Part shown: in pieces, positions 1 through 5,551 of the stretch | Position numbering within the stretch: position 1 is the stretch's first letter | Layout of the letters: the number at the start of each line of letters is the position of its first letter | Origin: a virus | DNA length: 20,273 bases | IMG/VR virus record: IMGVR_UViG_3300035228_000053 | Coordinates: 1 to 20,273 of that record | Direction: 5' to 3' (one strand) | Position numbers and translations under genes: made by a program | Notes under the pieces: generated by a model | What the model was told of the DNA's origin: nothing | Databases searched by the model: none | Seen by the model: the letters and a program-made list of their open reading frames with translations, nothing else

Positions 1-2493
1 ATCATAGTGCTCGTTCTTTTCTTTCTTCTTACCACCGCCAAGTGCTTTAGCAGCAAGTACTCCGGCACCAACAACACCTGCACCAATAAGAGCAGACTTA
101 CCAGGATTATTTTTTATAAAACTGCCTGCTGCTCTCAATCCCTTTGTTGCTTGACCAGCTACTTTGATTGGTTGGTTTACAGCTTTCGCAGTATCATTCG
201 CCTTCTTTAGAAGGGGTGCCTCCAATTTACCTGGTTTCAGTTTACCAGATCTTACGTTTGGATTGGCAGATGACTCAGGAGGGGGAACAAACTTATTCCA
301 AGCATTTTGAACTGGGTTACCAGTATCTTTGAGGGGCACTTTAGCTGGTGCCTCTACTATAAGATCACTTCTCCAATCAGAGAAACCTTCTTTCTTAGTT
401 TTCATGATTGCTTTGTCTCCATACTGAGCACGGATTTTAGACTTTACCATGTCCACTGCAGACATACCATCATATTTTTTAGAAGGTTTCTTTCCGAATG
501 TATTAGGTGTGTTACTAATTGGTTTCTTTGGTGCCCTTCTAGCACCCATACCGCCACGCTCTAATTGGCGATCCTTCATTGCATCTGATGCTTCTTCCTT
601 AACTTCGTCTTTTTTCTTTGCCTTTTTAGCACGGAACTTATCAATTTGTCTACCAATCTTACCACCGACTTTAGAACCAGCAATACCACCAGCGATTTCA
701 CCAGCAACCATTGCAGGTCCATCAGGGATTGCAACACCAGCGACACCACCAACACCAGCACCTACCTTAGCACCAAGTTTTTCATACTTACCATCACCAA
801 CCATTTTCTTCTTGTTGCCTTCTTTTGACTTAGCAACAACATCTTTACCTTTTTGTGCTGCTGCTCTACCACCCGCTTGAACTGCTCTACCACCCTTCTT
901 ACCACCAACTTTAATGCCAGCTCTGGTTATTGCAGATCCAATTCCTTCTTTAATTGGATCTGCTTCGATTACATCAACAGTTTCAATCTCAAGTGGTTTG
1001 TAATCTTCCATATCCTGAATCAGGATACCACCAGTAACTTCTTCCTTAACACTTGGAGAAATCTCAATCGTATTTTTGCCACGCATGACATCAATAACTT
1101 TGTTGATTTTATCCTCACTCTTTTTTTCAATCTCTAAAAGGTATTGATAGAACTCTTCGTTCATACCCTTACTTCTCTTGGCGATTAACTCCCTTCTAAA
1201 CTTGGGATCCTTTCTTGCTCTTTGTGCGTCAGACATGTTACCTGAACCTGTAGTTGATGATTGGGGTTTTGGTTTGTCAACTCCACCAGCAGGTGGTAGT
1301 GCTTTTTGACCGGAAGGTAATGCCTTACGAGCAGGTTGAACCTTCTTATCAGACAATTTGGAAACTGCTTTCCTCACTACAGCCTTACCTACGGTCTTTG
1401 CTGCCTTTCTTACTTCAGGATTGTTTGCTGCTTTCTTTGCTAAATCCTTTGCTTTACCTGCTGCTCTCTTTACTGCGAGTCTCTTTGAACCCGATATCTT
1501 TTTGGGTTCCTCAACTTTTACCTTTACCTTTTCAACCTTCTGGTCAACAGGTTTTTTACCAGCTGCCTTTGCTAAAGGATCTTTAGCAGCAGATGACTTG
1601 GTAGGTTTCTTAGGTTCTTTTGCAGAAGATGCCTTCTTCAAAGGATCCTCAGCAGCAGACTTCTTGGTGGGTGTTGTAATCTCAGGTTTTTTCACCTCAG
1701 GTTTCTTTTCTACCTTTGCTGCAGATTTAGTTTTTGGTGAAGAATCTGTGGGTTTTGCTGCCTTGTCTGAAGAACTAGAAGCAGACTTAGAATCACCATT
1801 AGACTTAGCACGAAAGGGATTGAGTTTCCCCAACTTGCTCATCCTCCTACGATTCAATCTATCACCGACCTTCTTATCCCGTGCTTTATCAAGTGTATCA
1901 TTACGCTTATCAATCTTACGCTCTTTTGCGTCTTCCTTTCCTTGTGCTCGCTTTGCTTTGGCACCAGCAATTCCAGCACCAATACCTTTTACTGCTGCCT
2001 TACCAAGATTCAATCCTGCTCTTGCACCAGCAACAGTTGATTTAGCAGCAGCCTTTGCTACTTTAAGTTCTGCAGATAGTTCACCCTCGTCCTTAGTGAT
2101 CGAGACCTTAGACTTTCCTTTAGCAGCAACTTCCTTTGCACGAGACAGACTCTTCTTGACTCCTGCCTTTCGCTTATCAGCAATGCCTCTGATTTTTTCT
2201 AGTTTCTTTTTCTCTGATGCTTCTTTACGTTTTTTACGTGCAATTACACCAGCAGTCCCTGCCGCATTCTTTTTATCCTGAGCAGACTCTTTCTCTTTCG
2301 CATCTTTATCTGCAGATGCCTTTGCTCTCCTTGCTTTAGCATCAGCGTCATTCTTCTGCTTACGCTTCAAAGATCCAGCACGAATATCTAAATCTTTTGC
2401 TCTAAGATCAAGTTTGCGCTGCTTTGCCTGACTCACGGTCATCGTGTCGTCAAGCACCTTATTGGCGGCTTCTTTCTTTTCTTTTGGTGTCAT
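1..2493 (-). CDS. Large Lys/Ala/Gly-rich late protein, C-terminus beyond window (at least 831 aa)
   Basis: An uninterrupted frame of 831 codons runs from an ATG at 2493 off the left edge. The ATG overlaps the TGA of the preceding 56-aa gene (ATGA), so the two are probably co-translated from the late promoter at 2695. Residues 1-270 are very rich in Lys, Ala and Arg, resembling histone H1-like or phage internal proteins. A decapeptide is repeated at about 279-288 (SAAEDPLKKA) and 301-310 (SAAKDPLAKA). A glycine-zipper stretch lies at about 572-617. Near the visible end (about 792-815) a motif, FIKNNP followed by IGAGVVGAGVLAA, looks membrane-active and resembles the C-terminus of the 497-aa protein encoded at 4021-5514. 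Internal LLE|I and IVE|A sites fit the T4 prohead-protease rule but are short enough to arise by chance. I do not recognise the family; late expression and composition suggest a virion protein. Confidence 0.8.
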   Translation of the reverse strand, partial: MTPKEKKEAANKVLDDTMTVSQAKQRKLDLRAKDLDIRAGSLKRKQKNDADAKARRAKASADKDAKEKESAQDKKNAAGTAGVIARKKRKEASEKKKLEKIRGIADKRKAGVKKSLSRAKEVAAKGKSKVSITKDEGELSAELKVAKAAAKSTVAGARAGLNLGKAAVKGIGAGIAGAKAKRAQGKEDAKERKIDKRNDTLDKARDKKVGDRLNRRRMSKLGKLNPFRAKSNGDSKSASSSSDKAAKPTDSSPKTKSAAKVEKKPEVKKPEITTPTKKSAAEDPLKKASSAKEPKKPTKSSAAKDPLAKAAGKKPVDQKVEKVKVKVEEPKKISGSKRLAVKRAAGKAKDLAKKAANNPEVRKAAKTVGKAVVRKAVSKLSDKKVQPARKALPSGQKALPPAGGVDKPKPQSSTTGSGNMSDAQRARKDPKFRRELIAKRSKGMNEEFYQYLLEIEKKSEDKINKVIDVMRGKNTIEISPSVKEEVTGGILIQDMEDYKPLEIETVDVIEADPIKEGIGSAITRAGIKVGGKKGGRAVQAGGRAAAQKGKDVVAKSKEGNKKKMVGDGKYEKLGAKVGAGVGGVAGVAIPDGPAMVAGEIAGGIAGSKVGGKIGRQIDKFRAKKAKKKDEVKEEASDAMKDRQLERGGMGARRAPKKPISNTPNTFGKKPSKKYDGMSAVDMVKSKIRAQYGDKAIMKTKKEGFSDWRSDLIVEAPAKVPLKDTGNPVQNAWNKFVPPPESSANPNVRSGKLKPGKLEAPLLKKANDTAKAVNQPIKVAGQATKGLRAAGSFIKNNPGKSALIGAGVVGAGVLAAKALGGGKKKEKNEHYD

Positions 2494-2695: not shown

Positions 2696-3958
2696 CTACT
2701 TTCTACCTACCTTTACAACATAGCGTTTGTTGAGTTTAGAACCTGGAGTCATACTCTGAACATACTTTAAGAATCCAGCAGTTCCTACAAGAGTGTTTGG
2801 ATGCTTCTTATCTCTCATCATTTTATTCATACTCACTTCGCTATACTCTTTAATATCCCTCAACCAAGACTTGAACATAATACCGTCTTCTGTCACACAG
2901 ATAATATAGTTAGTTCCACGACGATTAACACGTCCAACTAAACCAGTGTTCAGGTTCTCTACAATATCACCGAGTCTAAAAATCTTTCCCTTTACATATG
3001 ACTCACGCAATGACTCAGGGTCAAACTTAGGTGCGATCTGCCACAGTTCTTCTTTGATGTTCATTGACTTACGAACAGCATTGAACATTTCTTTCTTCTG
3101 GATGACCGTCATCTTATTGGGAACACCCTTAGAGAATGCATTGAAATCATCCTCTGCAGCATGTGCTCTCAGTTTAGATGCAGACATTCCTGATACGTCA
3201 TCGGCATCTGGGTCACGAGCACCAGCAGAGACAACTTTAATTTCATCAAAAGCATATAAGTCAGAACCATTATACTTCTGAGCAAGACCTTGGAATTCTG
3301 CAAGACGGTCTTGACCAACCATGATGGTTACACTCTTATATCCGGCTGCATACTTAGCAGTCAGAACATTAAAGATAGTCTTTGCATTATTATCGTCAAA
3401 GATATTCTCCTCATAATCCGGGAACATCGATTTCATAAATCCAATCTTGGTCTTAGGATCAAGTGGATTCTTTTTCTTATCTTGAGTTCTACTAGGATAT
3501 ATTGCTAAATCTGCATCCTCTCTCTTTGCCTGAGTTGCTGCTGCTTTCAACAGTTTCTCATGTCCAATTGTAGGAGGATTAAAACGACCGAATACAATCA
3601 CAGCACCAGTAGATTCTAGTTCTTCACCTTCCTCTTCTTCAGGTGCTGCTTGAGTTGCTTGTGCTGGTTGTTGCTGTTGCTGTGCAGGTTTCTGCTGTTG
3701 TGCTGGAGTTGCAGCAGCAGTCTTAGCAGTGCTTCTTACGGCATCTGCTCCTGCTTTCTTTTGCTTTTGCTTTTCTTCTTCTGCCTTTGCTTCACGTCCA
3801 GAAAAAACCTTTAATTTACCATCAACAGTCTTTGCTTTAAAATTACCCTGCTGATCATACCACCCACCGTGTCCGTCTCCTTTCAGACCCATTTTGCGGG
3901 CCTGAGAGGATACAGTCGTTTCTCCTGCTTCGGAAAGGAACTGACTGAACTTTTTCAT
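2696..3958 (-). CDS. Cytidylyltransferase-like (HxGH superfamily) late protein with capsid-targeting-like N-terminus
   Basis: This 420-aa protein appears to have three parts. (1) Residues 1-11, MKKFSQFLSEA, resemble the T4 internal-protein signal MKTYQEFIAEA, cut after (L/I)xE; a DGHGGWYD module follows at 29-36. (2) After a Lys/Gln-rich linker (about 55-115) comes a nucleotidyltransferase fold: GRFNPPTIGH at 124-133 is the (H/T)xGH nucleotide-binding motif and GMSASKLR at 257-264 matches the ISSTxxR-type motif. Both hallmarks are intact, so the domain is probably active; related enzymes join nucleotides to phosphorylated small molecules (NMN, phosphopantetheine, glycerol phosphate or choline phosphate). 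(3) About 325-370 looks like an SH3/KOW-type beta barrel (GDIVENLNTGLVGRV). A CTAAATA element lies 38 nt upstream. The substrate cannot be told from sequence. Virion packaging is inference. Confidence 0.85.
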   Translation of the reverse strand: MKKFSQFLSEAGETTVSSQARKMGLKGDGHGGWYDQQGNFKAKTVDGKLKVFSGREAKAEEEKQKQKKAGADAVRSTAKTAAATPAQQQKPAQQQQQPAQATQAAPEEEEGEELESTGAVIVFGRFNPPTIGHEKLLKAAATQAKREDADLAIYPSRTQDKKKNPLDPKTKIGFMKSMFPDYEENIFDDNNAKTIFNVLTAKYAAGYKSVTIMVGQDRLAEFQGLAQKYNGSDLYAFDEIKVVSAGARDPDADDVSGMSASKLRAHAAEDDFNAFSKGVPNKMTVIQKKEMFNAVRKSMNIKEELWQIAPKFDPESLRESYVKGKIFRLGDIVENLNTGLVGRVNRRGTNYIICVTEDGIMFKSWLRDIKEYSEVSMNKMMRDKKHPNTLVGTAGFLKYVQSMTPGSKLNKRYVVKVGRK

Positions 3959-3995: not shown

Positions 3996-4002
3996 TATTT
4001 AG
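3996..4002 (-). promoter_or_regulatory. Late promoter element CTAAATA (variant)
   Basis: The minus strand reads CTAAATA 38 nt upstream of the ATG at 3958, in the 62-nt gap after the preceding late gene. It differs from the T4 late octamer at its 5' end. Its placement matches the two exact TATAAATA elements of this cassette. A small AT-rich inverted repeat (4005-4019) precedes it. Confidence 0.55.
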
Positions 4003-5543: not shown

Positions 5544-5551
5544 TATTTATA
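5544..5551 (-). promoter_or_regulatory. T4-type late promoter element TATAAATA
   Basis: An exact TATAAATA octamer on the minus strand, 30 nt upstream of the ATG at 5514. It overlaps the last codons of the preceding 93-aa gene, so the early/middle region ends directly against the late cassette with no terminator visible between them. Confidence 0.75.

Follow-up and report, generated by a model that had tools for sequence, protein, structure and literature searches.

A tagged nucleotidyltransferase of a marine T4-like phage as a likely enzyme cargo of the phage head

The window analysed here, a virus record of 20,273 bases, was read to encode gp41, uvsX, gp43, gp62, gp44, gp45 and others, a gene set of the T4-like marine myovirus type; its DNA polymerase shares 70-73% identity with polymerases from Synechococcus phages and from single-cell marine viruses. 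An open reading frame described in an earlier note, which did not give the strand, was found to exist as described and to lie on the minus strand (Table 1). Its product is laid out as leader, GHGGWYD module, linker, nucleotidyltransferase, SH3/KOW-like C-terminal region and tail. The protein matches PHROG 395 (phrog_395, 'cytidyltransferase' or 'cytitidyltransferase') at E=6e-96 and 535 phage records, mostly of cyanophages. In S-SM2, P-SSM2 and S-SSM7 the matches are labelled T4-GC190 in GenBank, and the gene order there is gp43-uvsX-gp41-mazG, then GC190, then gp61-nrdA; the window shows the gp43, uvsX, gp41, mazG side of this order, the gp61-nrdA side falls outside. Over its full length the protein is 39% identical to S-SM1 GC190 and 48% identical to S-SCSM1 ORF91, and the similarity spans the tag, the nucleotidyltransferase and the C-terminal domains, as for a member of the T4-GC190/PHROG 395 family. 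The family has been named citidylyltransferase, cytidylyltransferase and NMNAT in the literature.

Table 1 Features of the tagged nucleotidyltransferase gene and its neighbours in the window; a slash in a sequence marks a known or predicted cleavage site of the T4 type.
Feature	Position	Strand	Remarks
Downstream neighbour g1	1..2493	-	Runs off the window; Lys/Ala-rich; phrog_1418
Tagged HIGH-superfamily nucleotidyltransferase gene, 420 aa	2696..3958	-	Stop codon 2696-2698; orthologue of cyanophage core gene T4-GC190
C-terminal region with SH3/KOW/Tudor-like barrel, residues 303-372	2843..3052	-
Nucleotidyltransferase domain, residues 118-302	3053..3607	-	Adenylyltransferase-like Rossmann fold
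Second catalytic motif GMSASKLR, residues 257-264	3167..3190	-
HIGH-type motif GRFNPPTIGH, residues 124-133	3560..3589	-
Variable linker, residues 57-117	3608..3790	-	Low-confidence, probably disordered, low-complexity, K/E/Q/A/P-rich
GHGGWYD module, residues 13-56	3791..3922	-	Predicted small beta unit; common to virion kinases and phrog_3561 proteins
T4-type capsid-targeting sequence MKKFSQFLSE, residues 1-10	3929..3958	-	Predicted gp21-type cut between E10 and A11
Late-promoter-like CTAAATA	3996..4002	-	About 44 nt before the start of the nucleotidyltransferase gene
Upstream neighbour g3, 497 aa	4021..5514	-	MNRHDLQKLAE/AY, LxE site at residue 11; phrog_1418
TATAAATA, exact T4 late-promoter consensus	5544..5551	-	About 36 nt upstream of g3

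The earlier note had called the gene a late one and, despite its setting among replication genes, the CTAAATA at -44 suggests late transcription. The cyanophage late-promoter motif was taken as [AC]TAAATA within 60 nt upstream; it precedes 23 of the 47 virion-labelled but 16 of the 230 other genes in S-SCSM1 (p=6e-11) and 29 of 47 virion but 23 of 158 other genes in S-CREM2 (p=8e-10). It was found in front of 39 out of 53 new non-redundant homologues, and within 80 nt upstream of none of the 18 window genes checked besides this gene and g3. In S-SCSM1, seven virion-labelled proteins come from the mazG-gp61 island, and the genes of five have the late motif, as compared with 0 of 11 unlabelled neighbours. 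The neighbour g3 is likely a virion or head protein, and g1 is possibly a head or core protein; PHROG 1418 is common to both and to the S-SCSM1 virion protein ORF89.

The first ten residues of T4 IPIII are enough for packaging, residues 4 and 7 serving mainly in targeting and residues 8 and 10 in processing (PMC9026906). According to the T4 record, IPII and IPIII start with MKTYQEFIAE/A. The leader of the window protein, MKKFSQFLSE/A, is in exact register with this sequence, including targeting residues 4 and 7 and cleavage residues 8 and 10, and has the approximately ten-residue length and the [LI]xE end of a capsid-targeting sequence. Leaders of the same kind are present in S-SM1 GC190 (MKKFSAFLNE/A), S-SCSM1 ORF91 (MKSFLQFLKE/A) and S-CREM2 gp154 (MKNFSSFLTE/A). 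The cut site of T4 gp23 we take to be FLTE/A, and S-SM1 gp23 retains an LTE site. F4, F7 and E10 are invariant in 30 of 30 non-redundant homologues (<90% identity), and the strict leader pattern is found in 71 of 72 homologues of less than 80% identity, the remaining one having V at position 8; the leader was never the bait in either homologue search, the second of which did use FGRFNPPT.

How special such leaders are was analysed by scanning 41,045 start codons in S-SM1, S-SCSM1 and parts of S-CREM2 (150 kb) and T4 (48 kb). Nine matches with open reading frames of at least 60 aa were obtained, eight of them virion proteins: T4 IPII and IPIII, the S-SM1 and S-SCSM1 enzymes, S-SCSM1 ORF30 and four S-CREM2 proteins. 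The 8,303 open-frame starts of the three cyanophages gave 7 matches versus 0.1 in shuffled peptides, and 0 of 2000 position-scrambled patterns reached 7, figures that are partly post hoc since the pattern was loosened slightly after sequences had been seen (e.g. L at position 4); six of the seven are virion proteins detected by mass spectrometry (MS). The capsid-targeting-like N-terminus noticed earlier is, therefore, real. In S-CREM2 the tag is carried by 4 of 47 MS-detected proteins versus 0 of 158 others (p=0.0025); these four, all in the virion proteome, are gp154 (T4-GC190 family), gp6 (SAM lyase), gp14 (kinase) and gp13 (a small protein). In S-SCSM1, where the tag is rare and for that reason did not give the separation seen in S-CREM2, the T4-like tag alone does not distinguish virion (1/47) from non-virion genes (1/230); ORF30 bears the tag yet is absent from the MS detections, and many virion proteins of the mazG-gp61 island are without it. 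Comparison of 30-residue leaders with PHROGs did not link the window leader significantly to any family of T4 internal proteins (its best match, of unknown function, had E=0.15); the S-CREM2 kinase leader reached E=0.06 with a family labelled 'internal virion protein'. This search is weak because ten residues are too short for profiles. A literature search, mostly of open-access papers, found no report tying a capsid-targeting sequence to cyanophage proteins. As judged from sequence, a T4-type tag may be the mechanism by which T4-GC190 enzymes enter the virion, a possibility that is new here.

The GHGGWYD module, noticed earlier as a DGHGGWYD module, also held up, and unrelated virion proteins carry it too. 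A profile built on residues 13-56 found two copies in gp14, the virion kinase of S-CREM2 (E=9e-15), and, furthermore, the S-CREM2 virion protein gp12, two S-B68 proteins (one a kinase) and S-CRM01 g128. The S-CRM01 kinase g130 starts with MISFDQFLSE and has a related module stretch by motif; an S-CRM01 kinase is cited in the S-CREM2 paper as found in virions (PMC10665884). The nucleotidyltransferases of S-CRM01 and S-CREM2 have the tag but not the module. Since the module occurs on a virion kinase and other proteins and is absent from these two enzymes, it travels with virion cargo and not with catalysis. The dN/dS is 0.02-0.09 in the module, 0.14-0.55 in the linker and 0.06-0.10 in the nucleotidyltransferase core, and the low values show that core and module are both maintained by selection.

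Several other tagged or related proteins were encountered. S-CREM2 gp6 (L176:3837-5081) is a SAM lyase (PF23780, E=2e-19) with the leader MKDFDSFLEE and is part of the virion proteome; a second protein of this family, just below the PF23780 cut-off, has the T4-type leader MKTFQEFMVE (L180:148-705). A natural reading of a tagged SAM lyase is a packaged anti-restriction enzyme. S-CREM2 gp12 (L176:7704-10313), annotated and published as a virion 'CRISPR-Cas9 nuclease', gave no Cas9 domain in the Pfam search; it matches phrog_3561 and carries LRFASFMAE/A along with its module. A 154-aa open reading frame (L182:138-599), on a contig that also encodes a tagged nucleotidyltransferase, starts with MKTFQEFIAE/A, nearly the T4 leader, which matched 'internal head protein' in PHROGs at E=0.006; the HHGTS...GVYTS that follows looks ADP-ribosyltransferase-like by eye, and there was no match in Pfam. 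Proteins of 137-158 aa with near-exact T4 leaders (MKTFSEFIAEA etc.), encoded ~2 kb upstream of the nucleotidyltransferase (L103:1075, L122:1015, L123:980, L137:929), are possibly cyanophage counterparts of T4 internal proteins. A conserved family of ~105 aa with the leader MK[STN]F.QF[MI]SES (phrog_1742 where scanned) comprises S-SCSM1 ORF30 (L087:44215-44532) and proteins of L179, L183 and L007:9203; ORF30 sits between virion genes yet was not detected there by MS. P-SSM2 GC206 (L070:23595-25251), a large protein encoded after nrdB, starts with MKSLSQFIIET and is a candidate for tagged cargo; neither Pfam nor PHROG gave a match. A neighbour gene of the DUF6267 type (S-SM1 GC71, L075:47295-48269; L086:1326-2549) has KWDGAP, which reads like motif I of ligases and nucleotidyltransferases. 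In PHROG 455, DUF6267 and the T4-GC190-type nucleotidyltransferase appear to be fused, and the C48C1 copy starts with MMLDFKNFITE.

Virion association of the T4-GC190 family has been published since 2010, when Sullivan et al. reported 'a putative citidylyltransferase (T4-GC190)' among the MS-detected proteins of purified S-SM1 virions (PMC3037559). Homologues were also detected by MS in particles of S-SCSM1 (PMC9602691), S-SZBM1 (PMC9146016) and S-CREM2 (PMC10665884), with a low signal of 2-3 peptides in the latter two (PMC9146016, PMC10665884); such detection means co-purification with the particle, not an interior location. The S-SCSM1 and S-CREM2 authors considered lysate carry-over possible for such proteins and also proposed an effect on NAD (PMC9602691, PMC10665884). 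The S-PM2 homologue was among the proteins not detected in S-PM2 virions (PMC3037559) and, as annotated, is without leader, a contrast that is suggestive only, since the S-PM2 proteome also missed true structural proteins. The earlier note proposed that the enzyme might be carried within the capsid. Good support for this comes from detection of homologues in virions of at least four cyanophages, the capsid-targeting sequence in register, the late-type promoter motif and the virion-gene island. We consider it very likely that the window protein is packaged in the virion, and probable that this occurs via the T4-type leader; for this protein itself we infer packaging, interior location, cleavage and ejection.

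The enzyme domain scored 29.2 bits against CTP_transf_like (PF01467; cut-off 21 bits, E=1.2e-6, residues 122-264) and, with a score above the gathering cut-off, HxGH/TxGH-type and SxSxxR motifs and a Rossmann-like fold, belongs to the HIGH superfamily. Both hallmark motifs, which had been noted as intact, are kept in 29 of 30 homologues (<90% identity), more than chance would give; nearly all of the 30 were found with patterns containing neither motif, and conservation is quoted from this first search because the second one used FGRFNPPT. The exception (L062:3349-4530), together with L061, is diverged: the HIGH motif reads GRFNPPSKNH and the second motif AGSSSLMR, the leader being intact. Since H133, S259, S261 and R264 are retained in L062, loss of catalysis was rejected there; an altered substrate or reduced activity may apply to both. 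The earlier expectation of an active enzyme agrees with this conservation, and we regard catalytic activity as highly probable.

To compare folds, an AlphaFold model was used, which is confident over residues 120-300 (block pLDDT mostly 82-94, with 71-75 in two blocks at ~231-260). The best Foldseek matches were NaMN/NMN adenylyltransferases (Arabidopsis 9rpm, E=2e-5) and phosphopantetheine adenylyltransferase (PPAT). In structural alignment PPAT, NadD and archaeal NMNAT all reached Z 13-13.9 (~155 aligned residues, mostly at 3 to 3.5 A); PPAT 3pxu (Z 13.9, rmsd 3.2 over 154 residues) was tied with NMNAT, and the features are superfamily-wide. This structure prediction and comparison, proposed in the earlier note, thus put NMN/NaMN and phosphopantetheine adenylyltransferases on top; glycerol-3-phosphate cytidylyltransferase was not among the best. 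A pairwise search of the PDB with the protein sequence found nothing, and a profile search gave chance-level matches only, including NMNAT at E=0.39. All NCBIfam NMNAT models stayed below cut-off (TIGR01526, 15 versus 341 bits; TIGR00482, 14.4 versus 112 bits), and PPAT-like folds score equally, so that the substrate is a guess. Among the substrates offered earlier, NMN/NaMN (NAD)-type adenylyl transfer would fit the models best and phospholipid-precursor cytidylyl transfer least; our assignment of an NMN/NaMN-type substrate is tentative, at somewhat less than even chances. An NMNAT by itself would depend on NMN or NaMN being supplied, which counts against the NAD reading. The S-SM1 'NAD synthetase' (L076:9998-10459) was considered as a partner in the NAD pathway and rejected, being a SegE GIY-YIG protein that is likely misannotated.

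The C-terminal region had been read as SH3/KOW-like and, at the level of the predicted fold, this holds, with five strands at 332-371. Modelled in isolation it forms a five-strand barrel (pLDDT 81-89 over its residues 21-70) that matches KOW, Tudor and other SH3-like domains; we claim the barrel class only, since the Z score is modest, even weak (NusG KOW 1m1g, Z 6.5 with 49 residues aligned at rmsd 1.5). The domain is a stand-alone open reading frame in S-PM2 and S-RIM44. The 'ribonucleotide reductase' entries phrog_4808 and GC534 are likely misannotated and represent the C-terminal KOW-like domain of the T4-GC190 family.

A true cytidylyltransferase of the glycerol-3-phosphate/CDP-lipid or CDP-sugar type, sent into the host to change its envelope precursors, would agree with the public annotation as cyti(ti)dyltransferase, with the name CTP_transf_like of PF01467 and with the glycerol-3-phosphate cytidylyltransferase homologues pointed to in PMC9146016, but PF01467 spans the whole superfamily. 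NMN/NaMN adenylyltransferases recur among the NCBIfam profile matches (in 23 and 16 of 28 members), and no cytidylyltransferase equivalog is among the profile matches listed. The top solved structures are adenylyltransferases, mostly NMNAT, NadD and PPAT, and the best fold matches contain no structure of a glycerol-3-phosphate or choline cytidylyltransferase; absence is not proof in either case. We consider this alternative highly improbable. Since the fold is NMNAT/PPAT-like and the NCBIfam matches are to NMNAT models, the name 'cytidylyltransferase' rests on that of the superfamily and, as far as models can tell, is probably a misnomer.

That the protein is an ordinary auxiliary metabolic enzyme of the infected cell, its MS detection being contamination and its leader a chance resemblance, is hardly more probable: the setting among the replication and nucleotide genes mazG, gp41, gp61 and nrdA, the carry-over allowed for by the proteome authors and the missing detection in S-PM2 would suit it, but the independent detection in four phages, the 7 tags where 0.1 are expected, the presence of 4/4 tagged S-CREM2 proteins in the virion and the late-promoter motif argue against it, and the undetected S-PM2 homologue is the one without tag. 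Alternatively, the protein could be packaged by its tag and have its main job in assembly, as a prohead-core or DNA-condensing component whose enzyme acts on virion parts or only inside the producing cell. Virion proteins are its neighbours in the counterpart island of S-SCSM1, the C-terminal barrel resembles nucleic-acid- and ribosome-binding SH3/KOW folds, and the L061/L062 lineage retains the tag with an altered HIGH motif. The catalytic residues are, however, invariant even in L062, the constraint on the core is stronger than a scaffold would need, and the low MS signal is unlike that of a major core protein; we regard an assembly role as unlikely.

We favour as the likely reading that the product of the gene is carried in the phage head as enzyme cargo, targeted by the tag, delivered at infection and catalysing adenylyl transfer to an NMN-like metabolite. 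The gene would be transcribed late, and residues 1-10 would take the protein into the prohead scaffold core, where the prohead protease (gp21 homologue) would cut after Glu10 (LSE/A), leaving a mature N-terminus that leads into the GHGGWYD module. The mature enzyme would be kept during DNA packaging and enter the host with the genome, as do T4 Alt and the internal proteins. In the host, the HIGH-superfamily domain would act on a small phosphorylated metabolite like NMN or NaMN, the nucleotide transferred to it being most likely the AMP of ATP, and this could support the host NAD pool or counter NAD loss at the start of infection; catalysis, substrate and benefit are what we infer for this enzyme.

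Cyanophage virion proteomics repeatedly finds 'metabolic' enzymes, and the authors were undecided between cargo and contamination. A T4-type tag offers a mechanism and makes this question reducible to a single N-terminal peptide. If true, a conserved core gene of abundant ocean phages would encode an enzyme delivered at the first moment of infection, instead of being an auxiliary metabolic gene that is expressed in its course, and the tag would be a sequence rule for finding further delivered enzymes. Chances seem about even that enzyme delivery is a general system of marine T4-like phages, in which a capsid-targeting leader of the T4 type, often with GHGGWYD, is placed on unrelated enzymes (nucleotidyltransferase, SAM lyase, protein kinase and possibly ADP-ribosyltransferase) that are packed in the head and ejected with the DNA as a preformed set, whose targets would be the NAD, SAM and protein phosphorylation of the host ahead of any phage gene expression.

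The closest known system is the T4-GC190/PHROG 395 family of Kyanoviridae (S-SM1, S-SCSM1 ORF91 'NMNAT', S-CREM2 gp154), with which the protein shares family, architecture, gene order, tag and motifs; unlike these, it comes from an uncultured phage on a 20-kb contig and is <60% identical to every listed isolate version. NadD, NadM, eukaryotic NMNAT and CoaD have the same fold and both catalytic motif positions, but identity is about 10-18%, the window protein scores below all equivalog cut-offs, and its N- and C-terminal parts are phage-specific. The S-CREM2 kinase gp14 and SAM lyase gp6, both in virions by MS, and the S-CRM01 kinase g130 have a ten-residue leader of the same kind, and gp14 and, by motif, g130 also carry a GHGGWYD-type module, whereas their catalytic domains are unrelated to that of the window enzyme. 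T4 IPI-IPIII and Alt have a ten-residue leader, with which that of the window protein is in register as in IPII/IPIII (K2, F/Y4, F7, L/I8, E10, A11); the mature protein, a HIGH-superfamily nucleotidyltransferase with GHGGWYD module and KOW-like domain, is unrelated to them and the function of its leader is predicted, but delivery of protein cargo with the DNA is presumed to be alike.
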